DNA from: Pseudoxanthomonas composti
Lineage (GTDB): Bacteria; Pseudomonadota; Gammaproteobacteria; Xanthomonadales; Xanthomonadaceae
Length of the DNA: 64,000 nucleotides
Assembly (NCBI RefSeq): GCF_004122095.1
Contig: NZ_SAWZ01000001.1
Coordinates: 496,001 to 560,000, forward strand
Direction of reading: 5' to 3'
Positions within the stretch are counted from its first letter, which is position 1, and each line of letters starts with the position of its first letter. Positions 15,160 through 51,649 of this stretch are shown here, piece by piece. A program made the translations under genes and the position numbers. The notes beneath the pieces were generated by a model. The model had not been told where the DNA came from and did no database searches. It saw nothing but the letters and a program-made list of their open reading frames with translations.

Positions 15160-15488
15160 GGCGCGGCTCCAACGGTGGGGGGGGGCCACCGGTTTAGCAT
15201 CCTGACAATTCTGAAAGGAGGGCCAGAGGTCACGCCCGGCTCGGGGGCCTGGACGGTGCGCTGGAAAGCCGTTCCACCACCGGACTGCGCAGTAGGGCTT
15301 GGCATGGAGCCGCTTCCGCTGACGTATCACTGCCGCAGGCATCGCATCCCCTGGCCAAGGCAATCCCCCACCGCGATCTGCCGTTCCCCATGCAAGATGC
15401 GGTCCGTGACGGGGTCGATTGCCGCTGATTCCAGGAGGGCGTATTGTATTTTGCACTACGGGCACACTTTCCATCAGGAGCTACCCCC
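15160..15488. promoter_or_regulatory. Divergent intergenic region; probable promoter/operator of the toxin-antitoxin pair at its right end
   Basis: This gap separates the peptidase gene from the toxin-antitoxin pair. A (G)9 run lies at 15177-15185. The only AT-rich patch, TATTGTATTTTGCACTAC at about 15443-15460, sits about 30 bases before the antitoxin ATG, where an autoregulated promoter/operator bound by the ribbon-helix-helix antitoxin would be expected. AGGAG at 15476-15480 is the antitoxin ribosome-binding site. The operator role is inferred from position. Confidence 0.45.
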
Positions 15489-15791: not shown

Positions 15792-15794
15792 GAG

Positions 15795-30948: not shown

Positions 30949-31284
30949 GCCCCGCCCCCATCCCGGTCCTGCGCAAGCGGCCGTCATGGCCATGCGCGAA
31001 AGAGCGCAATCCTACAGATCCGGACGGCCGCCACCTTGCTGGCGATCACTGTCTGCGCGCTTGGTCAGGTCCTGGCCCCTCGTTAGGAACGAGAGCTCGC
31101 GCCCGCAGTCTGACTGTGGCTCCTGCCAAGTCACCCTGTGACACAACGCCCCAGTGCCGCAACAAGGACAACGTAAGGACCACTCTTTCCGTCAATGCTC
31201 GAAGGAAAATAAGGGGGGGGGGGGGGATAAGTAACCCCAGTAGTATCGGGCCACTTTTACTGAGAGGCCATAAATTCACGATCG
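30949..31284. other. Intergenic region with a (G)14 tract at the edge of the AT-richer island
   Basis: No gene is seen. A run of 14 G lies at 31213-31226, and from about 31100 the GC content drops towards the CDI island. It would hold the promoter of the di-haem lipoprotein gene on the minus strand near 30950-31050. There is no clear terminator for the immunity genes. Confidence 0.5.
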
Positions 31285-31617
31285 TTATTCATACTTAAAA
31301 TCGATTTTTATCTTCATGCTGCGCAGGCATAGCTCGACAATACAACTTTTCCATGGCCTACCCCCCGCATAAAGCCCATTCGACTCGAAGAAATTTCTAA
31401 GCCGAACAAAAAGATCTAGCAAATCATTATCCACCTTCGCGCTGCTTGGCAAAAACCACTGCTTTTTTCCAGAGGGCCCAAGATAATCAAATAACAAATT
31501 ACAGTGATCCTCCCCCGGAGAAATTTCGGCCTCTACCATTACCACCTCGGCGTCAGCAGGAGAGATCGCGACCAAAACCGCACCAATGCCCTCATAAATC
31601 TTATTGTCCACACTCAC
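31285..31617 (-). CDS. Putative YezG/DUF600-type immunity protein, no cognate toxin in view
   Basis: This 110-residue acidic, soluble protein has an AT-richer sequence than the core genes. The opening KIYEGIGAVLVAI, EAEISP, a central LRNFFESNG and the closing 'W...IVELCLRSMKIKIDF' fit the layout of the YezG/DUF600 immunity family, by my recognition only. It is the third small gene behind the CDI genes, so it could protect against a toxin whose gene is not here. A GTG start at 31617 is used because no ATG fits. The frame stays open further upstream without a start codon, up to a TGA near 31690. Confidence 0.55.
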   Translation of the reverse strand: MSVDNKIYEGIGAVLVAISPADAEVVMVEAEISPGEDHCNLLFDYLGPSGKKQWFLPSSAKVDNDLLDLFVRLRNFFESNGLYAGGRPWKSCIVELCLRSMKIKIDFKYE

Positions 31618-31704: not shown

Positions 31705-32112
31705 TCAGGTGAATTCAATCGTGCACTCTGATAGCGGAAATGAGCGGCCATCCGAGACAACAAATTTATCCCCCTCGACTCGAGCAAGGAGTAAGCCAAG
31801 CCCCTTCCCCCCCTCTTCCATGTCCTTTCGCCAGCCAGCAAGATCACCGTGATATATGACAGCATGAAAAAGCGGGCCACCTGGAGGTGTAATGTCGCAA
31901 CCAGCTTCATTTATGCCACCAGAAGTTGCATTAGGCGGCTCAGTAAAGCAGGTTATTTTTTTAAACTGCTTTCTGAACTTACTTTTCCCGTCATCAGAGA
32001 AGTAAACAGCCTCACGAGTAGATGTACTTTCGGTTCCCGGGATGACCCTGGCATCCACTCTCTCAAGCTTTCCACCAAGCATTCGCTCTAGCCCTTTAAT
32101 TTGATCGCTCAT
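31705..32112 (-). CDS. Putative immunity gene for the truncated CdiA toxin
   Basis: This 135-residue soluble protein, of unrecognised family, starts MSDQIKGLERMLGG and lies only nine bases after the stop of the truncated cdiA, the position of a cdiI. A GAGG-type Shine-Dalgarno precedes the ATG at 32112. It has two cysteines and an acidic, Gly-rich C-terminal half (MEEGGKGLGLLLARVEGD). Composition is AT-richer than the surrounding core genome, as expected for acquired immunity genes. It is inferred to be the partner of the VENN-linked toxin. The pairing rests only on position. Confidence 0.55.
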   Translation of the reverse strand: MSDQIKGLERMLGGKLERVDARVIPGTESTSTREAVYFSDDGKSKFRKQFKKITCFTEPPNATSGGINEAGCDITPPGGPLFHAVIYHGDLAGWRKDMEEGGKGLGLLLARVEGDKFVVSDGRSFPLSECTIEFT

Positions 32113-32121
32113 GACGCAACC

Positions 32122-35100
32122 TCAATTTCTCACCGGAGTGATGACAAACTTAAAATTTTCAACACCCGCTTCTGTAAAATCCTTCGAATACTGACTAGCC
32201 AGCTCTTGACTATTCGTATGGTAAATGACGCCACCTTCAAAACCTGAAGAATATTTCTTTGCCTGATCCACCATCTTGGCTTGCTCTATAATCGACCAGG
32301 GTTTCGTACCTGTAGAGCCACTCGGGTTCCGAATGGAACTCCCCCAATCCTCTACAAACTTAGCATCAACAGCAGTTCGCTTTCCATCAGTAATAGTTAC
32401 GTTATCAGCAACACCATTTACTCGCCTTCCGTCTACAACTGTCGTGAACTGACGTTCGGCATAGGTAACACCTCCATAAATATCTCGCACACCACTTTCA
32501 TAGCTCTGTGCCTTGTCGATGGCTCGACCGCCGCTGATGGTCACGGGCTTAGTGGTTTCTAAACCCTGACCACTTGCTTTTGCACCACCAGCTGCAACAT
32601 TCGGTGCAGAGACATCGTCGCCCAGGCGCACGACCGCTTTCCCCGCGCTGCTACCCGCCAGCTCCGCAGCCTCATCCACCGGCCTTAAGGCACTGACTGG
32701 CTCAAGGGTTGTGATCGGCAAAGTCGTGGCTGGCTTGCCTAGATTAGCGGCCGCACCCGCTGGCACAAACCCGACCAGAGAGTAGAGCGCCTCCGCATAC
32801 GGCGTCGGCAGTCCTGTCTTGCTCAGCAACATGCCGCCCAGGGTGGATGTCGCTTGACCCGTCGCTACCGTTCTAGCCCCGGCTGTGGCCTGGTCTGCGC
32901 CCCAAGGGATCAGGACGCATGTAATGGCGGTCTCTAAGCATCCACCGCCGCCTGCGAGCATGGCGGTTGCGCCCTCCGCTGTTTGCAGCAGACCACCAAG
33001 GCGGGCAAACGGGTGTCCATTTTCGTTATCCCATTTCGTGGTGGCGTCTGATACGGCGTCAAGGGCTCCGTAGCCGAACAATTGCTGCTCCGAAGGCTTT
33101 CCAGTCTTTGCCGCCAGGGTTGTGCCGTAATTTAGGTAAATCTGAGTAGCCAGCAGGTCTTGCTCGTCCTTGAGCGATGCACCCGCAGCTTCAACAGCAG
33201 CCCAGAATTTTTGCTCCTCGCTACCATCCGCATACTCTGCAGAGCACTTGACTCGTGCGCAGGCGGCAGCGGTGAGCCGCGCCTCTTTATCGGCGTCCCC
33301 CTCGCTTAGCTCCTTGATCCGATTGACTTCCGTCTCGTTCAGCATGCGGTTGTTCTCCACCGCATTCTTGGAGGCGCCGGTTCCCGCCGCAGCCTCGGCC
33401 AGGCTTCCTCCCGAAATCCCCCCAGCCAGTGCGCCAGCTGCCTGCGACAGCGCCAAAATGGTTTGCTTGTCCGCGTCAGGAAACGCCTGCATCAGCACGC
33501 CGGCCGCCAGCTCCCCACCCGCTCCGGCTGACGCACCGCCCGCCAGCGATGTGCCATTGACCTCCGCAAGCACCGCGCCCAGCAGCGCATGCGACAAGGC
33601 CTGGGCGACCGCGTTCGGGTCGCTGCCGTGGTTGGTATCGAACTTCTGACCGATCAGCTGCGCTGCATATGGTGCGAGCGCGTTGCCCGCGATCTGCGCG
33701 CCGCTTTGGCCTGCGGTGCTACCCACCAAAGCCGTGGTCACGGCCTGCAGGTCGCGGTTGTAGTCGCCACCGGTCCCCCATTGCAGTTGGGTGGCATAAG
33801 CCTGGCGATAGTCCGAGCTGTTCTGCAGCAGGAGGTCCTGCTGGTCCGAAGCACTCAGCGCTCCGAATGCAGCCTGCGCCTCGGGCGATAGCCCCGACAG
33901 GTAAGCCTCGGCCGCTTGCGAGGCCTGCTTCTGGGCATTGGTGGCGATGTCCCCAGCCACTTGCTGGCTGGTCGCCACCACCGTGCCCATGGCCGCTGCC
34001 ATGGCCTGCTGGTCCGCCAGGAGCTTCCCGGCATCGGGAAGATCCTTGAGCGCCGTGTGGGCAACGCTGGCGTCGGCGTTGATGCCCAGTTCCGCGGCGG
34101 TGGTCTGCTTGCCGCCGAGGGTGATGTTGCCTTCGGTCAGGGTGGCGTAGGTCGTGCTGCTGTCGCCGCCCTTCTCTGTCATCGGCACGCCAGCGCCGAA
34201 GTTCGGGGTGCCGCCTTCGGTGGTCGGCTTGAAGCCCTCGGCCTTGCCGCCGTAGCCGCCACTGATGCTGCCCGAGCTTGCGCTGTGCTGCATCTGGTTC
34301 TGCAGGTCGCTGAAGGTCAGGCTCTGCGCGGTCAGCGCGCTGTTGGCCGCATTGGTGCTCGCGATCGCACCGCCGATCAGGTTTACCGTGTCCGCATCGA
34401 CGTGGTAACCGCCATCCCCGGCGAAGAGCCCGGACTGCTGCCCGACCCCTTCGTAGCTGCCGTTGGCCTTGCCCGAGCTGGCATAGCCGCTGGCGTCCCA
34501 GGCCGTGCCGAAGGACACCTGCACGCGTCCGCCGGCCTGGCTGTTCTTGGACGTGCTCTTGGCCAGGTCCTGCAGCGACTCGATGGTGAGTGCGCCGCCA
34601 GTCTTCACATCGATGCGGTCGCCCGTGGCTGTGGCACCGCGCAGGGTCGTGTCGCCATCGGCCTTCAGCGAGATGTCCCGACCGGTCAGCGTGGTGTTCT
34701 GCCAAGCGGTGCTGTCCGAACTGGACTTGCTGCTGCCCGCACTGGCTTCGGCATACACGTACACACCGGTCTGGGCGCCCACCGACACGCCTACGCCCAC
34801 CTCGACACCTGCGTTGTTGCTGCGGCTGCTGTCGGTGACATGCGCCTTGCCTGCCTCCAGCAGGATGTCTTGGGCTGAATCCAAGGACAGCTTGTCGCCG
34901 GCGCTCAGGTTGCCTTGCACGACATGGATGTCGCCGGTGGTGCTGGTCAGGCTGAGGTTACCGCCGGCCTGCAGGGTCGAGCCTTGCGAGACCGTGCTGC
35001 TGCCCTGTGCGCTGCTGCTGGCCGTCTTGAAGCCAACACCCGCCTCAGCGGCGATCAGGGTGCCACTGCCCCCCGCGCCAGCGGCCGCCGCCGCCGCGCT

Positions 35101-36258
35101 TGCCGACTGGTAGGCATTGGCCGCCGCGGCCATGCCCTGCATCGCCTGCAGGCGACCATCGGACTGGCGGGCGGCGTCCACGTTGTTGATCAGGTCGATC
35201 AGCGGCGACTTGATCCGTGCGAACACGCCGAACTTCTTGTCCTCATCGCTTTGCGAGTACTGGCCGGTTTCTTCGGCCGTGGTCACCTCGATCTGTGCGG
35301 CGGTGATGCCGATGTCCTGCGCGGCCACCACGTTGCTGGCGACCTGGCTGTAGGTGCCTCCCGCGCTCAGGCTGACATCGCCTTTCAGGCTGCCCACGCT
35401 GCTGGCCACCTGCGACACCTGGCCCTCCTGGTCGCGGTGGCGCTGGGCGTTGTAGCCGGCGAAGCGCTCGGTGTCGGAGATGACCACCGTGCCGATGCCC
35501 TTGCTGTCCGAGCGATTGGCATTGCCCAGCGTGTCCTGGCCGCTCCGCAGGGTCAGGTCGCCGGCCGCGTGCAGGCCGACATCGCCGTCCGCGACGATGT
35601 TGCCGGCGGTCAGCACGATGTCGCCGCCGGTCGTGCTCAGGCTGGCATTACCGCCCACCGACAGCTGCGTGCCGGTGATGGTGTCGGTCTGGCCGGCACC
35701 GTTGCCCAGCTGGTTGTAGTTGCCGAAGGCCAGGGCCGCCGCGTTGTTGAATCCCCAGCCCTTGCCGGCGCTGGCGTTGCCGCTGGACTGGGTGTTGTGG
35801 GCCACATCGAAGACGATGTTCTGGCTGGCCAGCAGCAGGGCATTGCCCTCAGCCGACAGCTGCGCGCCCTGGCTGGTGATCGAGCCATCGCTGGCGAGCA
35901 GGGTCAGGTTGCCGGCGGCGGACAACTGGCTGACCCGGGCGTCGCTGCTGCTGCCATTCTGCGCCGCGTTGGCGCGCTGACTGCCGGCCTGTATCACCAC
36001 CGGCGTGAGGGCTGCCATGGTGCCGGCGCTGGCGCCTTCGGCATCGCGGCTGGCCTTGCTCAAGGTCGAGCCACTGTCGGCCATGTCGGCCGTGGCCGAG
36101 TCGCGGGCGCTGCGATACGCCGCGGCCGGGTCGTAGGTCACCCTGACCGAGAAGCCGCTGGACTTGCTGGCTTGGCTGGACTGGCTGTCCGCCGTGTCCT
36201 GCCGCGCCAGCAGGGCGATGTCCTTGGCCGCCAGCGTCAGGTCCTGGCCCGCGCCCAC
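32122..36258 (-). CDS. 5'-truncated ('orphan') CdiA fragment with VENN junction and second toxin domain
   Basis: This 1378-codon frame encodes the C-terminal part of a CdiA-like contact-dependent toxin. It begins in the middle of an FHA-2-like repeat region. The bases upstream read GWASD in phase and then stop at a TAA (36283-36285), so no signal peptide or TPS secretion domain is present and the GTG start is only formal. The repeat region ends near residue 700. A pretoxin segment follows, ending in VENN at 967-970, then about 400 residues of variable sequence. The final 110 residues contain 'VADNVTI...AVDAKF', the spacing of a PD-(D/E)xK nuclease. It is probably not exported as it stands, but could swap its toxin cassette into an intact cdiA by recombination. 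Confidence 0.8.
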   Translation of the reverse strand: MGAGQDLTLAAKDIALLARQDTADSQSSQASKSSGFSVRVTYDPAAAYRSARDSATADMADSGSTLSKASRDAEGASAGTMAALTPVVIQAGSQRANAAQNGSSSDARVSQLSAAGNLTLLASDGSITSQGAQLSAEGNALLLASQNIVFDVAHNTQSSGNASAGKGWGFNNAAALAFGNYNQLGNGAGQTDTITGTQLSVGGNASLSTTGGDIVLTAGNIVADGDVGLHAAGDLTLRSGQDTLGNANRSDSKGIGTVVISDTERFAGYNAQRHRDQEGQVSQVASSVGSLKGDVSLSAGGTYSQVASNVVAAQDIGITAAQIEVTTAEETGQYSQSDEDKKFGVFARIKSPLIDLINNVDAARQSDGRLQAMQGMAAAANAYQSASAAAAAAGAGGSGTLIAAEAGVGFKTASSSAQGSSTVSQGSTLQAGGNLSLTSTTGDIHVVQGNLSAGDKLSLDSAQDILLEAGKAHVTDSSRSNNAGVEVGVGVSVGAQTGVYVYAEASAGSSKSSSDSTAWQNTTLTGRDISLKADGDTTLRGATATGDRIDVKTGGALTIESLQDLAKSTSKNSQAGGRVQVSFGTAWDASGYASSGKANGSYEGVGQQSGLFAGDGGYHVDADTVNLIGGAIASTNAANSALTAQSLTFSDLQNQMQHSASSGSISGGYGGKAEGFKPTTEGGTPNFGAGVPMTEKGGDSSTTYATLTEGNITLGGKQTTAAELGINADASVAHTALKDLPDAGKLLADQQAMAAAMGTVVATSQQVAGDIATNAQKQASQAAEAYLSGLSPEAQAAFGALSASDQQDLLLQNSSDYRQAYATQLQWGTGGDYNRDLQAVTTALVGSTAGQSGAQIAGNALAPYAAQLIGQKFDTNHGSDPNAVAQALSHALLGAVLAEVNGTSLAGGASAGAGGELAAGVLMQAFPDADKQTILALSQAAGALAGGISGGSLAEAAAGTGASKNAVENNRMLNETEVNRIKELSEGDADKEARLTAAACARVKCSAEYADGSEEQKFWAAVEAAGASLKDEQDLLATQIYLNYGTTLAAKTGKPSEQQLFGYGALDAVSDATTKWDNENGHPFARLGGLLQTAEGATAMLAGGGGCLETAITCVLIPWGADQATAGARTVATGQATSTLGGMLLSKTGLPTPYAEALYSLVGFVPAGAAANLGKPATTLPITTLEPVSALRPVDEAAELAGSSAGKAVVRLGDDVSAPNVAAGGAKASGQGLETTKPVTISGGRAIDKAQSYESGVRDIYGGVTYAERQFTTVVDGRRVNGVADNVTITDGKRTAVDAKFVEDWGSSIRNPSGSTGTKPWSIIEQAKMVDQAKKYSSGFEGGVIYHTNSQELASQYSKDFTEAGVENFKFVITPVRN

Positions 36259-36398
36259 ATCGGAGGCCCAACCGGATGGATTTTATGTTTTTAAAGAGCT
36301 TCTACTCATGCCACGCCTGCAGAGAAAATCTCTCGATAACCACCGCTAAGAATCAGAGACAAATTTCTTCTGAATAAACACCATCCCTACTCCCCCCC
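36259..36398. other. Junction between the immunity gene and the cdiA fragment
   Basis: This AT-rich spacer holds the breakpoint where the truncated cdiA sequence begins (about 36265-36275). It contains an in-frame TAA for the fragment and no promoter that I could identify. The small stem AGAGAAAATCTCT is noted at 36321-36333 without interpretation. Confidence 0.45.
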
Positions 36399-37301
36399 TT
36401 ATGCCAACATAGGCTCGCTCCATCGCGAGAAATCGAACTCCCCGGGCAATCGGCGCAAGACATGAGCGCAGTAGCGGTCAATTGCATCTCCAGGGTCGCG
36501 CAGCACCCGGATGTCATTGATGTCGCCACGATGAATGTGATAGACGACCTGATCCCGGCGAGTCGAGCATACAAAGAATTGATCGCCTACAGGCCCTCCT
36601 ACGCCGGCAGGACGAGTATCGAGAAAACACCGAAACTTGTATCTTCTTATGCCGTAACGACCCTTCGGCTCAACCACCGTATCCGGAAAGAGATCGACAA
36701 TCTTCGGAAGGAATTTCTTCTTCGCACCCTTGCCCAACGTATCCAGATAATTATCCGCGTCCAACCACATGGAGGAAGGATGGCCAATCAAACATCGATT
36801 GATCAAAGGCCCCTGAAATGGCTCACCTGGCATACGCCACCCCGCGGTACGCCATAACCACGATTTTGCCAACGCATCTGGAAGGCTCAACAAGGAACCA
36901 AATGAGTCATCGCCTTCTTCATAGGTAGAACCAGGAAAATTTGCCTGCACTTGAACCATTCGACCGCTGGCGTCAAAAAACAGGATAGGCCTGACCATAG
37001 GCGGACCACCTGGATTCATAAGATCCTTAATTAGGACAATACCAAGAAGAAGCTCTCCTGCCGCCTCATTGAATGCCGAAAATGAGTAAGGCTGCAGAAT
37101 TTCGAGAGGACCAATAACCCAACTCTTCCCTCTCGACAATAGCCCTTCATAATCATAATTACTTTTCATTCCATTGTATCCAGGCTCCATCACGGATCGA
37201 TAGGTGCCTGGCACATCTTCATAACACCCATAGATGCCCCCATCCATTCGAGCAAGATACTGGTCCGTTGACACCCCAAAGTTTTCATAAAAATCAACCA
37301 T
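36399..37301 (-). CDS. cdiI: Probable CdiI immunity protein (300 aa)
   Basis: This soluble acidic protein of unrecognised family is encoded immediately after cdiA. The ATG at 37301 has GGAG seven bases upstream. The frame continues back to a GTG at 37331 that overlaps the cdiA stop. Position in the order cdiB-cdiA-cdiI marks it as the immunity gene for the HNH-type toxin of the preceding CdiA. At 300 residues it is longer than most CdiI proteins (usually 80-180), so it may be a multi-domain immunity protein or may have a different role. Composition is AT-richer than cdiA's 5' region, consistent with transfer as a cassette with the toxin end. Confidence 0.65.
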   Translation of the reverse strand: MVDFYENFGVSTDQYLARMDGGIYGCYEDVPGTYRSVMEPGYNGMKSNYDYEGLLSRGKSWVIGPLEILQPYSFSAFNEAAGELLLGIVLIKDLMNPGGPPMVRPILFFDASGRMVQVQANFPGSTYEEGDDSFGSLLSLPDALAKSWLWRTAGWRMPGEPFQGPLINRCLIGHPSSMWLDADNYLDTLGKGAKKKFLPKIVDLFPDTVVEPKGRYGIRRYKFRCFLDTRPAGVGGPVGDQFFVCSTRRDQVVYHIHRGDINDIRVLRDPGDAIDRYCAHVLRRLPGEFDFSRWSEPMLA

Positions 37302-37317
37302 CGCGACTCCACTCTCA

Positions 37318-40300
37318 TCAATTTGATTCACGGTAGGCCTTTACGGCTTCCTCAACCTTCCCCCTAAATTTATCTTGCACCCCTTCCAAATAATTCTTGT
37401 ATTCAGCACTTACAGGCTTCCCATTCCAAGTCATCCATCCATCACCAACCCCTTCGACCTTGCATCCCTTGGAGCAGTTTGCCGAAGCGATCACGGGCTG
37501 CAGATTGGCCGGATCATTCAAAAGCTCCTTTTGAACAGTGACTGGCAACTCATCAAATCCGTCAATCTTCTTGATGGCATCTTGCGGAAGAATGTGATCG
37601 ACATGCACCTTAGCCGTGGACGGCACAACTTCCTTGGCTCCGGTCAATGGATTGACCCACGTCAGCTCGTTCCTGGCGTTCACCCAAGTATCGCTGACGA
37701 CCCTTCCATTTAGCCAAATCGTGTCTTCGGCGGCCTTGGCTAAAGGACGAAGTACGCCGACCGTCTTGCCAACTACGGTCGGCAACGCAGCCAACGCCAC
37801 ATCCGTGCTAGCTCCTTGGGTATCGCCTTGCACCACCTTACGTACGACACCGGCCGCCATACCGACATCGCCGCTGAACGTCTCCAATACCGCAATGCCA
37901 TCGGAACCACGTATCGCTGACGCCCAAGTCAACAGCTCGCCTTGGTACATCTGCTGCAAGGAGTTCTTGGTAACTCCCGAAGCTCCAAGGACGTTGTAGA
38001 CCTGTTGGAACTGCTTGGTGGTGTTGGCCAGCAGATTGCCGTACTGGGGGAAGCTGCCGTATTCCGCGTCAGTAGCTCTAAAAGCCTGCCCCCAGCTATA
38101 GCTATTCTCGTTGGTGTTCAGGAACGCCAGTGCTTCGGTATCGATCTTCTCTATGCCGACCTGCTTGGCGAGCACGGCATCAACCTGCGCCGCCGCCTCC
38201 AGGGTCAAGCGGTACTTCGCCTCATCAACACTGATGCCTTGCTGCTGTGCGAACGACTCTGCGTTCTGGTTGATCCAAGTGACTTCATCTGGATGAAGCT
38301 GGCGGTTGTACTGGTCGCCCGCCAGCGCCGTGCCGGCGCCTGTGCCGCCGCCCAGCGCGGTTCCCAAGGCCGCACTGCCCAGCTCCATCAGGCTGCCGAA
38401 GGCTGGGTCCTGAGGCGACATGCCTTGCGCGACCAGGTAATCCGCCATCGCCTGTTTGGCAGCCTCGGCCACCATCGCGCCCGCCGCACCAGCCAAGGCA
38501 TCCGACCCGCCCAGCGCGGCGACCGCGGCCCCGGTCAGCCCGTGCAGCAGTGTCTTGTTGGTACCACTTTCACTCCAGCTGTTCAGCCTTGCCAATGCAT
38601 CAGCCTCGGCTGCCGCATCGCCGTTGGCTTGTGCTGTGGCGAAGTCTTCCAGCGCACGCTGCTGCATCTGTGCGGCCAGGTCCCCTGCCGCCCGGAACCA
38701 CACCTGCCCGGCCACTTGGCCCAACTCGGCACGCTCCTGCAGCTTGTCCAGGTTGATTTCCTTGACCCCGTTGCCATCCAGCGTAGTGGCGGTACGCGTC
38801 AGCCCATCCAGTGCTGTGGTGTCGCCGTTGCGCACCACCACCGTGCCAGCGGCGATATCGCTCGTGGTCGTGCTGCTGGCGCTGTCCTTGGACCCGCCCA
38901 GCGCGCTGAGCCCGGCAGCCGCGGCCGAGGCGGCCATGCCGCCGCCAGTGCTCGCACTGACCCCCACGCTGCTGGTCTTGGCCTTGGCCTCGTTCTGCAG
39001 GTCCTCCACCGTCAGGCTGCCGGTGGACAGGTGGTTGAGTGCCGCATCTGCGCTGCTGGCGATCGCCGCGCCCACCAGGTGCGTGTTCCCGCCGACGTTG
39101 ATGTCGAAGCCACCGGCGCCGGCCTGGATGCCGCTCTGCTCGGCCACGCTGGTGTAGCTACTTTCGACCTTCTGCTGGCTGTAGCTGCCGCCGCTGCCCG
39201 AACCGGTCGCCAGCGTCAGGCTCGCCTGCTGCTGCTTGCTCTTGTACTCGCTGTTGTCCTGCTCGCTCTTGATCAGCAGGTTGCCGCCGATATCGGCCAC
39301 CACCCGGTTACCCAAGGCCTGCGCGCCCTGGATCGTGGTGTCGTTGCCGCTGACCAGCGTCAACGTATCCGCCGCGCTCACCACGCTCTCAGCATGCAGA
39401 TCACTATTGCCCTTGGCCTGGCCCTTGCCGGCACTGACGGACAGGTAATAGCCGGTCGTGGCGCCCACGCTGACGCCGATCTCGCCGCCGGCGTTCTTGT
39501 TCTCCGACTTGCTGGTGTTGCTCTCCTGATTGCTCAGCAGGCTCAGGTTCCGCGCCGCCGCCAAGGCGACGTTTTGGCCTGCAATCTGGCTGCCGATGAC
39601 GCTCAGATCGCCGCCGGTGGCGGCGATGGTCACATCGCCATCGCTCAGGATCCGACTGCCGCCGGTGCTCTCCTCGTGCGTCACCGTCTTGCTCGACGAA
39701 CTGCTGGCGCCGATGCCGAGGCGCAGGCTTACACCGGCCGCGTTGGCCGCGCCCTGGTTGCCATCGGCAAGGGCGCTCGTGCCATCCTGCGCGACGTTCC
39801 CGGCTACGGCCTGGCCCTGGTAGCCGGCCATGCCGTTGTTGAACAGCCCGGCGGCATCGCCCGCCGCGTATGCCGCCCTGGCCGCATACAACGCCTTGAG
39901 CCGGTCGTCCTCCACCTCGCTGCCTCGCTTGACCGCGCCGTAGGCTGCCTGGGCGGCATCCACCACGCCACCCGTCAGTCCCAGCGTGATGCCGGCGCTC
40001 TGCTGCTTGGAGGTCTGGACCGTATCGATGCGGTTCTCCGCCGCCGCGATGGTGACTTCCTTGCCGACGATGGTCGTCCCGCCGGCACTGAGCACATCGC
40101 TGCCGGTGATGTTCACCGCATTGCCGGCCGTCAGCGTGACCAACCCGTCCGTGCTGCCCACCACGCTGCCGCTGTGGCTGACTTCGGTCGCATCAAGCGT
40201 ATCGGTCTTCTTGGTCACGCCCAGGTTGACGCTGAAGCCACCGCCGCCGTACAGACCAGACTTCTTGACGGTCCTGTCGTGCTCCTCGCTGTGCGTGTTC

Positions 40301-43300
40301 TGCGCCGTCTCGAGTTTCAGGTCGTTGCCGGCTGCCAGCAGGACATCGCCGGTTCCCACGATCTGGGCGCCCTGGGACAACAGGTCATTGCCGGCGGCGA
40401 CGGTAACGCTTTCGCCACTCAGGGTGCTGGCCACCGCCACGCTGTCATGCCATTCGTCGTGGGTGGTGGTGGTCTTGCTGGAGAAGGTGCCCTTCTTCTT
40501 TTTGGCCATGTCCTGCACGGCGTCGTGCTGTTCCTGCGCCGAGAGCAGGTTCACATCGTTGCCGGCCGACAGGGCGATGCCGCCGTTGGTGCTACTGACC
40601 GTGGCCGCGGTCAGGGTGGCGTCGTGACCTGCCTGCAGGACGATGTCGCTGCCAGCCTGGAAGCTGGTGCCGTGTACGGTCTGGTCCGAGGTCTGCGTCA
40701 CCTGCTTGAAGCGCTTGCGCGTCTCGGTGGTGCTGCTGGTGTCGGTGGTGGTCAGGGCGGTGACGTTGAGGTCGTTGCCGGCCACCACGGTCATACCCTG
40801 CCCGGCCTGGAGCTGGGCCGCCACCAGGTTCACGTCGTTGCCCGCGGCCAGCACCAGGTTGCCGCCGGCGTTGAGGGCCTGCACGTCCAGCGACTGGCGC
40901 GTGGTGGTGGTGGTCACCTGGGTCTTGCCCTGGCGACTGCGATCGACCACGGTGCTGCCGGGCTCGAGGACCGATTCCACCGTCAGGTCGCGCGCGGCCG
41001 TGGCCACCAGGTCGCCACCGGCGCTGACTTCCACCTGCCGCAGCAGCAGGTCCTTGCCCGAGCTCAGCTGCAGGTCCTCTGCCGCGCTCACGCGGGTGCG
41101 CGTGCCGCTGCCGTCCTGGGACAGGGACAGCGTGCCGCCGGCCATCAGGGCGGCGCTCCCGCCGGCCTCCACCGCCACGCCGCGCAGTTGCAGGTCGTTG
41201 CCTGCCTGCAGCTGCAGGTTGCCGCCGGCCTGGATCGATGTCGCCTCGCCACCGCGGATGAGTCCGGCGTCTTCGCGCAGCGCGCCGGGCTGGGCCAGCA
41301 GGCTGCCGCCGGCGGCCAGCAGGGCGTTGCCGCCCGCGGCCACCTTGGTGCCCGACAGCGACAGGTCGCCTCCGGCCAGCAGTGCCAGGCTGTTGCCGGC
41401 GCTGATCGCGCCCAGCGTGCTGTGTGCGCCGATGCCGGCCAGGGCCTCGCTGCGCAGCGCGTTGCCCGCACTCAGCGCCACGTCCTGGCCCTGGATCTGG
41501 CCACCCAGGTTGAGCAGGTCATCGCGTGCCTGCAGGACCACCGCGTCGCTACCGGCGATGCGCCCCTGGTTGAGCAGGCTGCCGGCCGTGGCGAGCACGT
41601 CGGTGCCGGTGATGGCGCCCTGGTTGGTCAGGGTGCCGGTGGCGTTCAAGTCCACGGTGCCACCGGCGATCAGCGCCCCGTCGCTGCGCAACTGCAGCGA
41701 GGACGAGGCCAGGTACACCACGGGCACCAGCACCTTCTGGCCGGCGTATTCATGCTCGACCATCCACACGATGTCCTCGGTCAGCGCCGCCACCTGCGCC
41801 GCGCTCAGGCCCACGCCCACGCTCAGCTGCAACGCGTTGGACGCGGCCACGCCCGATTCCAGCAGCGCTCGGTACTGCGCCACCCCGTCCTCGTAGTTGC
41901 CCAGGTAGCGCCGGCCGGTCAGGTCGGTGATCTGGTCCAGCACCAGGCGCTGCTCGTAGAAGCCATCCCCCAGGCGCTTCATGTCCGCTTCCGGGTCCAC
42001 GCCCAGCTTGTCCAGCAGGTAGTCGCTGCTGATGAAGTTGTCGTAGTTGACGAAGCGCGGATCGGTCTCGATCAGGTACCGTCGCACCGGGCCGCCGCCG
42101 CGATAGGCGTTGATGCCGCCCAGTGCGCCGGCCGCGCGGCCAAGTGCCGCGGTCGTGGCGCCATCGATGCTGGCCAGGCGGTAGAGCCCGCCCGGCGCGG
42201 TCATCCGTACGTAGTCGGGCACGTTAACCGTGCCGTCCAGCAGCACCGTTTGCGTCTGCCCCTCGACTGCCGCGGGCGCCACGGTGGAACTGCTCACGCC
42301 CGTGGCCGCGCCGACGCTGGTGGCCACAGGACCGGCCGACTGCAGGCCATTGTCCACACGCGCCGGACCGCTCGCCGCATTCGCACGGCCCTGCACGGAC
42401 TGACCTGAAGCGCCGTTGGCGCGCTCCACGCCGCGCTGCGACGGTGCGCCGATACCGCCGCTGCCGGCGAGTTGTGCACCGCTGATCGCCCGGCCGTCCA
42501 GACTGACCGCGCCATTGGAGATGTTGGCGCCATTGATCGCCACTCCCTGGCCACCGGTCATGTTGGCGGCAAGGGCGATGTAGCTGTTGTCCAGGATCCC
42601 GGAGTTGTACTCCTCTACCTGTACGCTGTAAGTGCAGCCGTCCGCTCGATAGCCGCGTGCGCAATCGCCATCCTCCAGAACGGCCACCTGCGCGACGTCG
42701 GCGTATCGAGTCCGTTGGCTCAGTGCTAGAGCGTTGTTGCTTACGACTTCTTGCCCGCTGATCAGAGCATCGCTAAGACCATTCGTGCCGGCACGATTGA
42801 GCGAGAGCACACCAGCGGCGGCAATCGTCGATGCATTGTTGTCTACGCTGCCGGACAGGGAGATGTTATTTCCAGCGGCGAGGCGTCCTTCGGCGCTGGC
42901 CGAGATCAGTTGATCGCGGCTGATGACGTCATACGTTCGCGTCTCCTCCAGAATGATTCTGTCACCGACGTTGGGACCGTTTTGCTCGGGCATTGGTCCC
43001 CCGACGTACAGCACTTCAGGAGGCGTCGTCGCGTTAATTGCTTCGCGCTCAGCTTCAGACAGCGGAGCGGTTTGGGCGTTCACCACCCGCCGCCGGTTAT
43101 TGATCTGATTGGCCGCGATGAGCACGCTGCCATCGGCCTCGATGCTGCCGGAGATGTTGTTCAGCACACCGGTGCGCGCGGTGAGGGTGCCGCCGCCGTC
43201 GCGCGCGGCACCGATGGCGATGTTGCCCAGGCTGAAGATGCGCGCGTCGCGGTTGAGTAGCTGGTCGCGCACCAGCAGGGTCATGTTGCCGGTGCTGCCC

Positions 43301-46300
43301 AACAGCGCCGAGCCGTAGGCGCTGTTGTCGGTCGCCCCGCCCAGGTCGGCGCCGTTGATCAGGGTGCCGGCCTCCACCAGCACGTTGCCGCCGACGAGGT
43401 TGCCGGTGTTGTTGATGGTGCCCGCGCGCAGGCTCAGCGCGGTGTTGCCGGAGACGCTGCCGGCGTTGTCCAGAGTGCCGCCGGTGCCCAGGCGGGTCTC
43501 GTTGGCCAGGATGCTGGCGCCGCCCCGGTTGAAGATATTGCCGGCGCTGATGTCCAGCACACGCGCGGCCTTCAGCGTGGCCTCGTTGGTCAGGTTGCCG
43601 CCCACGCGCAGGAAGAAATCGCCGTTGCTGGACAGGTCGGCGCCGGCACGATGCACGTAGTCGCCATGCAGGGTCAGGTCGAGCAGGTTCTGGGCCAGGA
43701 TGCTGCCGCCGCCATCGAAGCTGCTGGTGGAGATGACCACGTCACCGGCACCGCCGGTGCTACTGCCCGCGCCGATCCGTCCACCGGCGTTGCTCAGCGA
43801 CTGCAGGTCCAAGCGGACGGCTTGCTCGGCCTTGAGCGTGCCGTTGCGGTTATCCACGGTGGCGCCGCCACGCTGCAGCGCGAAGCTGCCGCCTGCGTAG
43901 ACGTTGCCGCCCTGGTTGTCCAGAGCGTTGGTGTTGGCGGTGAGATCGCCACCGGCGACCAGTTGGCCGTTGCTGTTGCCGATGCTGGCCGCGTCGATCA
44001 CCACGCTGCCACGCCCGCCCAGGTTGCCGCTGGCATTGACCAGGCCGCCGCCGGTGACCAGGCGGGTCAGGCCGGTGCCGTTGTTGACGATGTGGCCCTG
44101 GGCGTTGTCGATGGACCCTGCCGAGGCGGTGAGCGTGGTGCCGGCATCGAGCTGGCCGCCGCCGTTGCGCAGCGCGCCGTTCACGGTGAGGTTGAACGCG
44201 CCACCGGCGCCGAAGCGGCCGCCCTGGTGGTTGTCGAACTGGCCGCGCGCGGTGATGTTCAATGCGCCACCGGCCTGCACGCTGCCGCCGGCATTGGCGA
44301 TGTTGGTGGCGATCAGCGTGGCCTCGCCGCTGGCGCCGAGGCTGCCATTGCCGTTGTCCAGCCCCTGGGCCAGCTCGACCCACAGGCCGCCGCCGCTGCC
44401 ATTGCTGGCCACCGCCTGCGCGGTGCCCCCGGCGTTGGTCAGGCTGTCGGCACGCAGGGTCAGCGCGCCGCCGCTGGCCTGCAGCAGGCCGTTGCGGTTG
44501 TCGATGGCGCCGGAGGTGGTCACCGCCAGGTCGCGTGCTGCAATGGAACCTGCCACGTTGGACAGGCTGGTCGCAGCCAGGCCGGCATCGCCGGCGGCGG
44601 CGATGACGCCGTTCTGGTTGTCCAGCGCGCCGCTGGCCGACAGGGTCAATCGGCCCTGGGTCAGCACGCGTCCGCCGGCGTTGCCGAGCGCGCCGCGGCT
44701 GCTGATGTCGAGGGTGCCGGCGCCGGCATGTTCGATCCGGCCCTGGCTGTTGTCCAGGCTGGCCGCGGCCAGGGTGAGGTTGCCGCCGTTGCTGGCGATG
44801 GTGCCGGCGCTGTTGTCGATGCCGCCGTCGAACACCAGCCGGGTATCGCCGCCGCCGGACTGCACCAGGCGGCCACCGGCGTTGTCCAGCGCCGCCGAGT
44901 TCAGCGTCAACTGGTTGGCCTGCAGGCTGCCGCCGGCGTTGTCGAGCGTGCCGCCGGCCGACATGGCCAGCGTGCCGCCGGCGAGCAGGTTGGCGTTGCG
45001 ATGGTCGATCGCGCCGGTGGCGCTCAGCGTGGCGTTGCCGCTTACGCGGGTGGTGCTGCCGGCCAGTTGCAGCTGCTGGCCCGAGGCCTGCAGCGCATGG
45101 CCTGCCAGCAGCGTGCCCGAGGCCTGCATGGTGCGGTCTGCGATCAGCGACAGCGTGCCGCCGCTGCCCAGCTCGCCGTTGGCGGCGATGCCGGCGCCGA
45201 CGGTGCCGGCGATGGCGATGTCGCCGGCGTGCAGGCTGAGGTCACCGGCGGACACGGTCTGCCCGGCGTTGTCGAGATGCGCCGCTTCCAGCGCCACGGC
45301 CTGGCCGCGCACGCTGCCGCGCTGGCGCAGGGTAGCGCCGCTGCCCAGGTCGACCTGCTGGGCATCGAGCGCACCGTCGATGGTCAAATCCCCGCCCGCA
45401 TCGAGCCGCAGCAGGGACGCGGCACTGAGCGTGCCGCTCTGGCTGAGCGCGCCATCGGCCTGGGCGGTGAAGGCGCCGCTGGCGGCCAGCGTGCCAGCCA
45501 GGCGCAGGTCGCCATGGCTGCGCAACGCGACCTCGCCGGACTCGCTCCCCAGCCTGCCGCTGCTGGCCAGGCCGGCCGCGGTCACCTGCAGTGCCTGGCC
45601 GCCGATCAGGTCGCCCTGGTTGTCCACGCTGCCACGCGCGCTCAGCTCTAATCCCTGCGCGCCATAGGCTTGGCCTTGCTGGCTCAGGCTGCCCACGTCC
45701 AGGGCGAGCATGCGCCCTGCCAGCAGCCCGCCAGCGTTGCCGGCCTGCCCGGCCAGCTGCACGCTCAGGTCGCGTTGCGCGGCCAGCATGCCGCGGTTGT
45801 CCAGGCTGGCTGCGTTGACGGACAGGTCGCTGCCTGCATGTAGCTGGGCAGCGTTGTGCAGCGCGGACCCGGCGGCGATATCGATGGTGGTGCCGGCCTG
45901 CAGCGCGCCCGCCAGGGCGATGTCGCCATCGGCCTGCAGGTCCAGCGTGGTGCCGGCTTCGAGCGTGCCGCGGCTGTCGATGGCGCCGGCGTCCAGCGCC
46001 AGCGACTGCGCGGTCTGTATCTGCGCGGCCTGGCCGGTGGCCAGGGTGGCGCCGGCGCCCAGACGAACGCTGGCGGCGCCCAGCTGGCCGTCCAGCTGCA
46101 GGGTGCGCTGGGCCTGCAGATCGGCCGCTTGGATCGCGTGCAGGCTGCCGCCGAACACCGCATCGCGCCCGGCGCTCAGCACCAGTGACTGCGCCGACAG
46201 ACCGCCCGCCTGGTAGAGACTGCCGCCCGCCTGTGCATGCAGCGCACCGGCGGCGGCGACGACGCCTGCAAGGTCGAGGTCCTCGCGGGCCGAAAGCCGG

Positions 46301-49300
46301 ACCGCGCCCGCTTCGCTGCCCAGGCGACCACGGCTGCGCAAGGTCCCGGCATCAACTTCCACATCGCCAACAGCAATCGCCTCGCCGGTGTTGTCGAGCG
46401 TCTGCAGCACCTGCAGCCGCAGGTCCTGCCCGGCCTGCAGGGTGCCGGCATTGGCAAGGCTGCCGGCAAGGTTCGCTTCCAGCGTGCGCTGGGCGGCAAG
46501 GACCGCGCTGACGGCGTTGTCCAGGCCGTCGGCATCGATGCGCAAGTCGCGGCCGGCGATGACCTGGCCGGCGGCGCTCAGTTGGCCATCGCTGCGCAAG
46601 GCCACGTCACCGCCTGCCTGCACAATCCCACCCAGCGTCAGCGCATCGCTGCCGAACAGGCGCAGGTCGCCATTGGCATCCAGGCTGCCTTGGCTGTCGA
46701 GCACGCGTGCGTCGGCCGCGATTGCAGCGCCGCTCTGCAGGACCGAGCCAGCTTCAAGGTGCAGCTGGTCGGCCTGCAGGCTGGCATTGGCCTCGCTGCG
46801 CGCCTGCGCGGCGAAGCTCAGCGCGGCATGCGCGCGCAGGTCGAGTGTGCCCGCCGATTGCAGGGTGCCGCGCGCGACCAGGTCGCGCCCGGCCGACAGC
46901 GACACGCTGCCGCCGCTCAGCGCACCGGCCTGGTGCAGGTCACCGGCCGCGACGGCTCGCAGCGCACCGGCGGCCGCGGCCGATCCGGCAAGCGCAAGAT
47001 CACCGTCGGCGGTCAGTGCCGCATCGCCCGCCTCGCTGCCGATCTGGCCGCTGGTGCGCATCGTGCCGGCGCGCACGGCGAGCGCATCATGCGCGACCAG
47101 GCTGCCGGTGTTCTCCAGCGTCTCCTGCACCTGCACGTCCATGTTGCCGGCGCTGGTGATGCGGCCGTCCTGCCGCAGCGCGTGCGCACGCAGGTCCACA
47201 CCGCCGAGCGCATGGATCTGGCCAGCGTTCTCCAGTGCGCCGAGCACCTGCAGTTGGAGTCCCTCGCCGGCCGAGAGCGTCGCATCGCGAGCCTGGCGCA
47301 TCGCGGCCGCGCTCGCCGACAGCGGGCCGCCGGCCACCACCTGGGCCGCGCTGTCGAGTGCGCCGCCGGCCTGCAGCGCCAGCGCCTCACGCGCCTGCAC
47401 CGTCCCGGCCAGTGTCAGCGCATCGACCGCGGTGGCCTGCAGCGAGCCGCCGGCATCGAGCACGCCGTCGCTGTCCACGCTGGCGCCCTGCAGGACCAGC
47501 GCGCCCAGGCTCTGCAGTTGACCACGCTGGCGCAGCGCCGCATCGGCCTGCACACGCAGGTCGCCGGCTGCCGACACCACCGCACTGCTGTCCAGCGCGC
47601 CGACCGCCTGCAGGTCCATGCCGCCCGCGGTGCTACGCACGCTGCCGCCCAGGACCAGATCACCGCCGCTGCGCGCCGCCAGCGTGGCCGCACTCAGCGA
47701 GCCTTCGAGTCGCGCCTGCTGCTGGGCCTGGATCGAGGCCGCACCGCCTGCAACGGTGTTGCCGCCCAGCGCGAGCGTGTTGACACGTAACGCCAGCGCA
47801 CCGCGCTGGCTGCCAAGGTCGCCACTGGAAGCCAACTGCGCGGTGTCCACGCGTAGGGCATCGGCCGCCACCAGGCTGCCGCGATTGTCCAGCGCATCGC
47901 GCAGCGCCAATGTGGCCGCACCGGCGCTGTAGACCTGTCCGGCGTTGTCCAGGCGCTCGCCGCGCAGGTCCAGCCCCGCGCGGGCGTAAAGCGTGCCGGC
48001 GTTATCGGTGCTGGCGCTGTCCACGGACAAGGCGCCGTTGGCCGACACCATGCCATCTGCGCGGTTATCCAACCGCGCCGTCTGGAGCCGCAGTGCGCCA
48101 CCGGAGATCAGGCTGCCGCGGTTGTCCAGGGCCGAAGCCAGCAGCTGCACGCCGCCCCGGCCCTGGGCCAGGCCAGCCAGGCTGGCCGAACCCGTGCTGC
48201 GGATGTCCAGGGTGTCGGCGGCATCCAGCGTGCCGGACAGCCCCATCCTGCCGGCGTCCAGGGCCAGGCTGGCGCCACTTTGCAGCATGCCCGACAGCGA
48301 CAGCTCCTCCGCCTGCAAGGAAGCATTGCCACCGGCATGGAGCGTGCCGGCACTGCGCAGCAGGCCATCGGCGTTCAGGGCCAGGGTGCCTGCGCTGTAG
48401 ATGTTGCCGTCCACGGCCAGCTCGGCGGCGGCCAGGCGCAGCGCACCGGCGCTGCTGCGACCGGTTTGCAGCAGCGCGCCGGTGGTTGCCGCGTCCAGCG
48501 TGCCCGCGGCGATGGTGTCGCCGCGCAGCGCCATCGACGCGCCGCGCAGGCTGACATCCCCGGTCTGCGAGCCGGCCGTGCCGTCCTGTAACAACGCACC
48601 GGCCGCAGCGACCGCCAGGGCATCGCGCGCCACCGTGGCGCCGTCCAGGCTGACCTGTCCGCTGCTGTCGATCCGCAGATCCCCGGCCTGCGCCGCCAGC
48701 GTGCCCTTGCTGACCACGCCGACCCCGGCCTCGGTAGCGATCAGGCGAATGCGATTGGCATACATGCCACCGAGCTGGGCCACGTCGATGCCGAAGGCCG
48801 GCGCCCCGCCCTCGGTCGCCGGCAAGGCTTCGAGCAGCAGGCCGTCGTAGCTGAAGCGCCCGCCACCGCTCACCCCGTTCAGATCCTGCGCCCACACCGA
48901 GCCGGCCACGCCCAGCTGCCGGGACAGCAGATCCAGTCGATCCACGCCGGATGCATCCAGGCCACGGGCGCCCACCTCCAAGGTGCCGCCGCCCACGTCG
49001 AAGCCGTTGAGCGCGCCATCGGCGCCAAGATGGGGACGGCCGGTGGCCAGGGTCACGCGCGAGGTGTTGAGGAAGCCGCAGCCGTTGCAGCTGATGCCGT
49101 TGGGGTTGGCGATGACCAGCTGCGCCCTGCTGCCGGCGATCTCGACATAGCCATCGAGTCGGCTGCGTGTGGAGCTGACCTCGTTGAGGATCAGCGAGGC
49201 CGGCCCGGCGCCCTTGAGGTTGTCGTTGCCGGCGACGTAGCCGCCCAGCTCGGTCCTGGAGATCTGCGCGCTGTTGTTGAGGATCAGGCCCTGCGTGCCG

Positions 49301-49590: not shown

Positions 49591-49664
49591 GTCGCGTCCC
49601 CTGTTTCCTTGTTGCCTGGTGCTCCGCGCGGTGGCGGACTCAAATCGCACGCGCAGCGCGTGCG

Positions 49665-51362
49665 TCAGAACTGGTAGATCACCCGCGCGCCGTAGGTCGG
49701 CTGCGCGCTTCCGAAACCGTCCGGCCGGTGGATCGGCCAACCGGCAAACGCATCCACGCTGGCCCCGTGCCAGCCGCCGCGCACGCCGACCGCCCCGCCC
49801 ACCAGGCTGCGCCCGGGCAGGCCCTCGGCACTGCGGCCATCCACGCGCCCGGCATCCAGGCCCAGGTAGGGCGACAGGCGCCCACCGAGCAGGGTCAGGC
49901 TCAAGGTGTTGCGCCAGTACGCCCCCTTCTCCGCGCCCAGGGCGGCCTCGCCGTCGAATCCGCGCACGCTGTAGCGCCCGCCGATGGTGATGAACTCAGA
50001 GCCCAGCAGCAGTTCTCCTGCCGTTTGTGCGCGCAGATTGCTTTCCCAGGACAGCGCCGCCGGGCCCAGTCGCAGCGGCAGCGCCATCCCAAGGTCCAGG
50101 CTGGTCACGCCATAGCGAAAGCTGGGGAAGCCGACCTGCGGGTCGTAGCCGGTCCACTGCCCATCGAACCAGGGCGTGCCGCGGCGATGCGCCAATCGCG
50201 CATCGACCTGCATCGCGCCCAGGTAGTGTCGATGGGTCAGGTAGAACTCGGCGCTGGTGGTGTCGCGGCGCTGGATGGCGATCTCCACCCCGTCCAGATA
50301 GCTGCGCGCCCGCCGCCGGGCCAACGTCATCCCCAGGGCGGTCTTGTGCTTGCCACCGCGAGCGACGACCCGCTGCAGGTCCAGCTGGGTGCTGCTGGAT
50401 TGGCCGCTGGAGCGGAAGCGCTGCTGGAAGCCCTGCACCTGCTGGTGGTAGCGGTAGGAGGAGGTGGACAGCGAGAAGGTCCACCAGCCCCAGGGCAGGC
50501 TGTAGCTGAGGCTGTTGCCGCGCGTGCCGCGCGCCTGGTCCTGGTCTGCCAGATCGTGGCTGTAGCCGATGCCGAACAGATCGTTCAAGCCCAGTGGGTT
50601 GTCCACCGACAGGTCCAGCCCCGATTGCACCCGCCCGGTGGCCTGGACGCCGGCATCGTCGGCGTTGAGCACGCCACGCCAGCGCCTGGCGTGCTGCAGG
50701 GTCACGATCAGGTCTGACTCGCCGGGCTCCTCACCAGGGGCAATGTCGATCTTCGCGTCCTGTGAGGCCAGCCGCTTGAACTGTTCCACCGCCTGCTCGA
50801 TCGCCCGCAGATCCAGCAGGTCGCCCGGTCGGATCGGCAGCGCGCTGCGCCAGCTGCCGCCCGGGCGCTCGGACACCACGCGCACCGCGCGCAGGCGTCC
50901 TGGCATCAGTTCCAAGCGCAGCTCGCCACCGGACAGGTCCTGCTCGGGCACGCCGATGCGCGTGGTTACCAGGCCGCGGGCGAACAGTTGGTCCAGCGCG
51001 CGCCTGCGGATCAGAGCGATGCCCGCACGTCCGACGCACTGCCCCTCATAGCGACGCAGCGACTTCAGCAGCCAGCCGAAGCGGTCCCAGTCCGCGCCGC
51101 CACCGAACAGCCGCACGCGGGTGATCGGAAAGCACGGAGTTTCCTCAGGCAGCGCCCACGCGCCGCCGCCCTCGGCCGGAGCGGTCGGTGTTCCGGCGAA
51201 AGGCGCCTGACGGTCCTGCTGCTGGCGCTCGCTGATCTGCTCGGCCTGGCGCAGCTGCTCCTGCCGATCCAGCGGCGAGGACGATGTTTGTTGCGCCGAA
51301 GCGATGCCGGCCGCAGCCCAAAGGCACGCCGCCAAGATCCATGGCGCTGGACGAATCCCCAT
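49665..51362 (-). CDS. cdiB: Outer-membrane CdiB/TpsB transporter
   Basis: This is the TpsB partner of CdiA, of the Omp85/FhaC family. After a signal peptide (about residues 1-24) there is a plug-like helix, two POTRA domains (about 75-220) and a 16-strand barrel ending in the C-terminal phenylalanine (VIYQF). The barrel loop motif (YSVRGFDGE, the VRGY-type motif of family loop L6) is present. It recognises the TPS domain of CdiA and exports it across the outer membrane. It is the first gene of the operon, with cdiA 74 bases downstream. The ATG at 51362 follows a G-rich stretch. An ATG six codons upstream is possible. Confidence 0.93.
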   Translation of the reverse strand: MGIRPAPWILAACLWAAAGIASAQQTSSSPLDRQEQLRQAEQISERQQQDRQAPFAGTPTAPAEGGGAWALPEETPCFPITRVRLFGGGADWDRFGWLLKSLRRYEGQCVGRAGIALIRRRALDQLFARGLVTTRIGVPEQDLSGGELRLELMPGRLRAVRVVSERPGGSWRSALPIRPGDLLDLRAIEQAVEQFKRLASQDAKIDIAPGEEPGESDLIVTLQHARRWRGVLNADDAGVQATGRVQSGLDLSVDNPLGLNDLFGIGYSHDLADQDQARGTRGNSLSYSLPWGWWTFSLSTSSYRYHQQVQGFQQRFRSSGQSSSTQLDLQRVVARGGKHKTALGMTLARRRARSYLDGVEIAIQRRDTTSAEFYLTHRHYLGAMQVDARLAHRRGTPWFDGQWTGYDPQVGFPSFRYGVTSLDLGMALPLRLGPAALSWESNLRAQTAGELLLGSEFITIGGRYSVRGFDGEAALGAEKGAYWRNTLSLTLLGGRLSPYLGLDAGRVDGRSAEGLPGRSLVGGAVGVRGGWHGASVDAFAGWPIHRPDGFGSAQPTYGARVIYQF

Positions 51363-51649
51363 TGCTCCTGCCCCCTGCATGACCGCGACAGCGACGCGGT
51401 CAGTTCACATCCCTGCGACATCCATGTTTTCGCGTTCGCACCGTTGGCACGGTGCGGCAACGTCACAAGGCATGCCTGTCCTTGAAACCTCTTCGGCAGG
51501 AACTTTCGGCTTCTGAAGCCTGCAGCGCAGGGCATGTTTCATTTGCCCAGGTGGCTTCACGTTCCGAGCGTGAGGAAAATCACGCCCATCCCGGTGACTT
51601 GCGCCCGCACGTCGCGGTCGCAGCGAGCGGGCCGCCCGCGATGCCCGGC
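51363..51649. promoter_or_regulatory. Region upstream of cdiB with an 8-bp hairpin
   Basis: This is the presumed promoter region of the cdiBA genes on the minus strand. CGCACCGT and ACGGTGCG (51437-51456, loop TGGC) form a perfect stem, 75 bases before the cdiB start. It could be the end of the neighbouring BtuF-like gene's transcript, a regulator site or a leader stem; no T tract follows it. No -10 was convincing. Confidence 0.4.

Follow-up and report, generated by a model that had tools for sequence, protein, structure and literature searches.

The window analysed here is a stretch of 64,000 nucleotides of Pseudoxanthomonas composti (NCBI RefSeq assembly GCF_004122095.1, contig NZ_SAWZ01000001.1, positions 496,001 to 560,000) and carries on its minus strand an intact contact-dependent inhibition (CDI) set, consisting of cdiB, cdiA and a putative immunity gene. 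Behind this set and on the same strand lies a 5'-truncated cdiA fragment, which lacks the front part required for export and is probably the displaced relic of an earlier CdiA of the same CDI system, namely its 3' half with the second filamentous haemagglutinin repeat region (FHA-2), VENN pretoxin, toxin and immunity gene, which was replaced by a half with another type of FHA-2. In the following, the FHA-2 type of the fragment is named class B and that of the intact, live gene class A. The fragment is an orphan (displaced) cdiA-CT/cdiI module and as such of a known kind, with an exchange unit larger than the classical cassette that reaches from VENN to the immunity gene. The displaced module comprises the following features:

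32122..36258, minus strand: displaced class B cdiA 3' half, 1378 codons, in a stop-to-stop frame reaching to 36282
36259..36267, minus strand: Ala-Ser-Asp, the three codons before the GTG with which the homology truly ends
33349..33360, minus strand: VENN motif of the displaced half
32122..32574, minus strand: toxin domain of the displaced half, a predicted restriction-endonuclease-like nuclease
31705..32112, minus strand: immunity gene, probably cognate to the displaced toxin, 135 aa, with GAGG 7 nt before the ATG

The open reading frame of the fragment begins with GTG, encodes 1378 aa and lies in a stop-to-stop frame of 1386 codons that opens with NPSGWASD-VGAGQDLTL, and the first-pass annotation of this DNA had correctly placed GWASD before VGAGQDLTL and a TAA eight codons upstream. 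Pfam detects Fil_haemagg_2 (7.8e-42) and PT-VENN (6.7e-13, residues 928-971, with VENN at residue 967), but no two-partner secretion (TPS) domain in the frame, and the fragment is thus a 5'-truncated cdiA and not a complete CdiA effector, as had been described from the letters alone. In close relatives, the boundary region reads TIAASD or TIAGSD or similar, followed by (V/I/L)GAGKDLTL or similar. The window sequence keeps the ASD of this family and then diverges, and the approximately 160 bp upstream of ASD have no blastn match at E 0.1 in any of the loci fetched from relatives (see below). Therefore, the fragment is indeed cut sharply, as had been noted, but the homology ends at ASD, three codons before the GTG.

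The live CdiA in front of it belongs to a complete locus:

49665..51380, minus strand: cdiB, outer-membrane TPS transporter (Pfam ShlB, 3e-100, plus two POTRA domains) with 68-76% identity to the CdiB proteins of seven Xanthomonas loci
37318..49740, minus strand: intact (live) cdiA, 4140 aa from the first TTG, with the first ATG about 150 bp inside; TPS domain, FHA-1 scaffold, class A FHA-2, NRQLH pretoxin and C-terminal toxin domain
37318..40281, minus strand: 3' part of the live cdiA that is specific to class A, starting near residue 3154 (nucleotide level)
36399..37301, minus strand: putative immunity gene of the live CdiA, 300 aa, directly downstream of cdiA, with GGAG before the ATG

The live CdiA matches the Pfam families TPS (3e-49), Fil_haemagg and Fil_haemagg_2, has NRQLH at residue 3812 in place of VENN, and its toxin shows a weak likeness to GmrSD_C (E 0.006, below the cut-off). 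The putative immunity protein has 85 matches including itself, several of them from Xanthomonas and Stenotrophomonas, and its position and these homologues suggest the immunity role. The first-pass annotation had concluded from the different pretoxin motifs, VENN and NRQLH, that the fragment is no simple recent duplicate of its neighbor. Both motifs are confirmed and the conclusion stands; however, the divergence extends far beyond the pretoxin, as fragment and adjacent CdiA are only 26.6% identical in their best alignment (867 columns), and the live cdiA DNA gives no blastn match at E 1e-3. The longest exact stretch common to both is 16 bp, compared to 14.8 bp on average and 17 bp at most in 30 codon-shuffled controls. 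Thus, by blastn and longest exact match, the fragment contains neither a homology arm to the adjacent cdiA nor recombination tracts of high identity in FHA-2, and no other class B copy is present in the genome. This bears directly on the proposal, also made in the first-pass annotation, that the fragment is a live cassette store which recombines with the live cdiA and thereby switches the toxin. Such arms exist in relatives, the toxin domain of the fragment looks intact, and a toxin of the displaced type is found behind another FHA-2 elsewhere (both described below), but with an exact match no longer than in shuffled controls we consider a store in this strain highly improbable, while it is plausible in those relatives that keep an arm.

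Where the two classes part can be read from the scaffold. The scaffold of the live CdiA matches that of the class B CdiA of Xanthomonas (X.) pisi in three stretches at 71-74% nucleotide identity, the last of which ends at residue 3154, whereas the nucleotide match to the class A CdiA of X. melonis continues past this residue; at the protein level, the resemblance to class B scaffolds tapers off around residue 3240. The homology of the fragment begins approximately 60 codons after the parting point at residue 3154, and at the nucleotide level it therefore consists solely of class B-specific sequence. Both toxin domains and both immunity genes have a G+C content of 46-51%, compared to 68-71% in the FHA parts, which fits acquired tips, as expected.

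A protein search, in which the 7989 likeliest candidates were scored under length limits that left out full-length CdiA, gave 195 matches to the fragment; among the matches listed (120 of 195), the best besides its own protein is 67% identical, and many are Xanthomonas and Stenotrophomonas "hemagglutinin repeat-containing" proteins of about 770-2350 aa. A search of a genome collection gave 43 loci, which were sorted by open frame. Twelve of them have the class B match and a TPS domain in one frame (L012, L014, L015, L016, L018, L025, L030, L032, L036, L037, L043 and L046), three of which, L032, L036 and L037, lie outside the Xanthomonadaceae and are just 39-47% identical. In some other loci, the class B match stands alone behind another CdiA, and several contigs end too early to judge. 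Ten genomes (32-40 kb each) were fetched, picked out of the 43 loci by arrangement and not at random. Seven of these have a CdiB with 68-76% identity to that of the window (lineage I), whereas in X. floridensis, Stenotrophomonas (S.) mori and S. maltophilia E301 it has 36-37% (lineage II). Four of the seven lineage I relatives, X. AmX2, X. bonasiae, X. cucurbitae and X. pisi (CdiB 68-75%), contain the class B half in one frame with a CdiA scaffold, which in X. cucurbitae extends to the end of the fetched contig; X. pisi has an additional class B piece on a short contig. These are scaffolds with a 3' half such as the one stranded in the window, and they support the view, raised as one of two possibilities in the first-pass annotation, that the fragment is left from an earlier CdiA displaced by the present one. 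The other three, X. melonis, X. arboricola and X. Leaf131, show the same arrangement as the window, with another FHA-2 in the live gene and a class B half behind it, which in X. arboricola is split into three frames. The live FHA-2 of X. melonis and X. arboricola is 64-68% identical to class A of the window, that of X. Leaf131 only 37%, so there are more than two FHA-2 classes. The X. melonis orphan matches the 3' end of X. pisi CdiA with 88% nucleotide identity over 4577 bp and, judged by this match, is the 3' end of an X. pisi-like CdiA.

The 5' breakpoints of the displaced halves differ between loci. We measured 13 orphan frames, some of which are pieces of broken ones, and nine of the 13 have a VENN-like motif, preceded within the frame by approximately 480-1690 codons of homology. 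The window, with about 970 codons before VENN, is mid-range, and hence the length of the fragment, which had been called unusual, is not so within the Xanthomonadaceae. The underlying premise that orphans usually start close to VENN agrees with a passage of a review (PMC9086364), whereas according to passages of Poole et al. (2011; PMC3150448) orphans can keep varying amounts of upstream cdiA, as the nine frames do here.

At conserved positions the fragment has changed little. Among 301 columns that are invariant in full-length class B proteins, it differs at 10 (3.3%), compared to 0-5.3% when the full-length rows are left out in turn and 10% in the S. mori orphan. The mean ratio of nonsynonymous to synonymous differences (pN/pS) is 0.396 for the fragment versus 0.393 for X. 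AmX2 and 0.378 for X. pisi, with full-length rows at 0.294-0.393 and the S. mori orphan at 0.518. By this rough test, with synonymous sites near saturation, the fragment spent most of its history under constraint. One might take this, together with a frame open for 1386 codons and no excess of changes, for the signature of an independent gene with its own start and a working protein. Yet it has no TPS domain, the GTG is not preceded by a Shine-Dalgarno-like run, the number of promoter-like sites around it is at chance level (2 observed versus 2.5 expected), and the starts in relatives differ, which makes an independent gene extremely unlikely.

Homologues of the displaced toxin were found, and the fragment has both the pretoxin motif and the C-terminal toxin domain of an orphan module; toxin and immunity gene are apparently intact in their sequence. 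In both of the two plasmid records that hold the toxin, a homologue of the gene at 31705-32112 lies directly downstream of it, and because of this pairing the gene is probably the cognate immunity gene of the displaced toxin. In one relative, P0208, the toxin is 86% identical to the displaced one, but the FHA-2 is 43% identical to that of the live CdiA and only 31% to that of the fragment; it thus stands behind an FHA-2 nearer to class A, and toxins of the displaced type thus change class. Probably the toxin half of the fragment is not made and the immunity gene is the useful remnant. For Escherichia coli EC93, Poole et al. (2011; PMC3150448) describe a comparable state, in which the orphan immunity protein is made and the orphan toxin apparently not.

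How the displacement may have taken place can be outlined as follows. The incoming class A half would have brought its own pretoxin, toxin and immunity gene. On its 5' side, the incoming DNA would have paired by homology with cdiA in the shared TPS/FHA-1 scaffold, and its 3' side would have been joined illegitimately. The outcome would be a seamless live gene and an old half stranded behind it, starting where the second joint fell and likely retained for its immunity gene. A homologous 5' joint combined with an illegitimate 3' joint would explain the varying breakpoints, as well as an arm in some species and none in others. Alternatively, the class B half could have been acquired downstream as a separate module, without ever having belonged to a CdiA at this locus. 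In favor of this, class B FHA-2 has crossed between two CdiB lineages, an exact 15-bp repeat of the fragment start lies at the far end of the array, and Neisseria tpsC cassettes can enter from outside and recombine into the downstream region (PMC3848433). However, class B is live in four of the seven fetched relatives of the same lineage, so that an ancestral class B takes fewer steps, although these relatives were chosen and not sampled, and we regard a separate acquisition as unlikely. Several points weigh against the displacement of a resident class B half. Because the ten fetched relatives were chosen for their arrangement, no frequencies are derivable from them. Moreover, none of the 38 genomes of the genus has the state before the displacement, and only three of them, including the own one, match the fragment at all. 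One of these, G026, has a 58% match inside a frame of 4272 aa plus a smaller broken piece 9 kb away, and G029 has a weak match; their CDI loci have a CdiB 37-39% identical to that of the window and none of its flanking genes. The FHA-2 of both modules has approximately 73-75% nucleotide identity to Xanthomonas, and with such similar divergence the pair may date far back, which leaves no way to fix which event came first. Finally, the constraint on the fragment is silent on its present use.

In several relatives, the displaced half does share an arm with the live gene. In X. melonis (L056 and L057), live cdiA and displaced half have 1363 bp in common at 96.6% identity with an exact stretch of 1123 bp; of 14 windows of 100 columns, 12 are 100% identical, after which the identity falls to 96% and, where the classes meet, to 61%. 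X. floridensis, X. Leaf131 and S. mori have exact matches of at most 136, 108 and 65 bp, respectively. The longest one in S. maltophilia E301 measures 13 bp, and the window is therefore not alone in having no arm. Comparing live gene and orphan within a genome, the likeness of the arms is 93.4% for X. arboricola and 91.7% for X. Leaf131, as opposed to 88.7% between the live genes of X. melonis and X. arboricola. Since these two species have sequence across the break in common (818 columns at 80.7%), they probably share one displacement event. The likeness within the X. melonis genome is far above that between the genomes, which suggests that its arm was exchanged with the live gene after the species split, although a second displacement would leave the same picture. 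The difference is slight for X. arboricola (93.4% within the genome versus 92.9% from its orphan to X. pisi), and X. Leaf131 shows no clear difference, as its live arm is 91.8% alike to the X. arboricola orphan. Toxin switching is plausible in X. melonis, which keeps the arm and is a good place to look for it.

Class B FHA-2 is also not bound to one type of transporter. In the CdiB tree, lineage I (8 rows) is split from lineage II (11 rows) with full support. In the tree of class B FHA-2 (20 rows, with orphans labelled by the CdiB of their locus), the two lineages interleave with five changes, of which at least three are forced by supported branches; the one-origin topology occurs in no bootstrap tree, and the lineage label is unclustered, as 127-131 of 500 shuffles of the labels score equally low. 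When lineage II is kept together, the tree is rejected with p-AU 0.0006 for all rows and 0.0001 without S. mori and the window. The same holds when only the 12 non-orphan rows are used, one of which, L021, has its TPS part in a separate frame (p 2.6e-6; of three changes, two are forced); here, X. sp. 3793 and X. dyei, which have a lineage II CdiB, fall among the Xanthomonas of lineage I. On the evidence of these trees, class B FHA-2 moves between CdiA scaffolds, across two deep CdiB lineages. As a separate observation, L030 shows the reverse arrangement: behind its class B CdiA lies, at 15368-16207, a piece of class A-like FHA-2 with 42% identity to the live CdiA of the window. Furthermore, small class B fragments with a common start within an array are present in L017 and L045, namely three at residue 205 (S. 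mori) and three at residue 188-189 (S. ginsengisoli).

At the far end of the array in the window, two further features were found:

31285..31617, minus strand: second immunity-like gene without toxin, 110 aa, weakly YezG-like (PF04634 E 0.003, TIGR01741 E 3e-4, both below the cut-off)
31064..31078, minus strand: exact 15-bp repeat of the fragment 5' end (36236-36250), a possible further remnant

The 15-bp sequence has two matches in the window and none in 100 shuffles. Beside the repeat, 23 bp at 31025-31047 (minus strand) match class B FHA-2 DNA of two other genomes at 91% (E 0.024), and repeat and adjoining match are perhaps the trace of one more displaced half. A run of 14 C (31213-31226, minus strand) lies between the last immunity-like gene and a di-haem oxidoreductase gene; such runs can vary in length. 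Of the 38 genomes of the genus, only the own one has the latter gene (28708-30993, minus strand) at E 1e-150, and the stretch as a whole may be a variable island.

The comparison with known systems is drawn from parts of the respective papers. Like the fragment, the orphan cdiA-CT/cdiI modules described there (PMC3150448, PMC4927057) lie on the same strand behind cdiBAI and have a truncated 5' end, VENN, a toxin and an immunity gene, and they were proposed to be displaced 3' ends or to form a silent repository; Ruhe et al. (2016; PMC4927057) present a fossil model as well as a silent-repository model. In contrast to these modules, the FHA-2 class of the fragment differs from that of the live gene and there is no arm. 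A homology arm to the adjacent cdiA is present in many orphans but not required of all, and Poole et al. too have an orphan without upstream likeness to its cdiA (PMC3150448). The fossil model fits the window. The tpsC cassettes of Neisseria meningitidis (Arenas et al., 2013; PMC3848433) are likewise truncated tpsA-like pieces with VENN, a new 3' end and an immunity frame, with rare recombination and many broken cassettes, but they comprise 260-893 residues versus 1378 in the fragment and share their central part with the adjacent tpsA, which the fragment does not. For remnants of type II cdi loci in Acinetobacter, De Gregorio et al. (2019; PMC6336857) propose stepwise displacement with incoming DNA pairing at cdiA and an illegitimate 3' joint, which is the mechanism favored here. 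There, the divergence starts after a conserved region that is partly FhaB-related, whereas in the window FHA-2 itself is in the swapped unit. A literature search gave no title or abstract opening on displaced CdiA halves of Xanthomonas or on the exchange of a whole FHA-2, with subscription journals thinly covered and such absence unproven.

For the family, a wider picture can be put forward tentatively. In the Xanthomonadaceae, the unit of exchange would be the whole delivery half of FHA-2, pretoxin, toxin and immunity gene, with at least two FHA-2 classes swapping on a common TPS/FHA-1 scaffold and class B having crossed between two deep CdiB lineages. Halves that keep an arm may then be reversible two-state switches, the arm undergoing concerted evolution with the live gene (most clearly in X. 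melonis), and a half without arm, as in the window, would be frozen and kept for its immunity gene. The finding is ordinary in kind and informative in detail. Orphan modules are mostly discussed as toxin/immunity tips that are cut near the pretoxin motif, while here FHA-2, which is thought to carry the toxin through the outer membrane of the target (PMC9086364), changes along with the tip, and the part for export and scaffold is shared. The case is thus notable mainly since a whole delivery section was swapped, beyond the toxin tip. This makes it testable whether FHA-2 classes differ in their targets or in the pretoxins they serve, and X. melonis with an arm and the window without one provide paired cases in which reversible switching should and should not occur, respectively.

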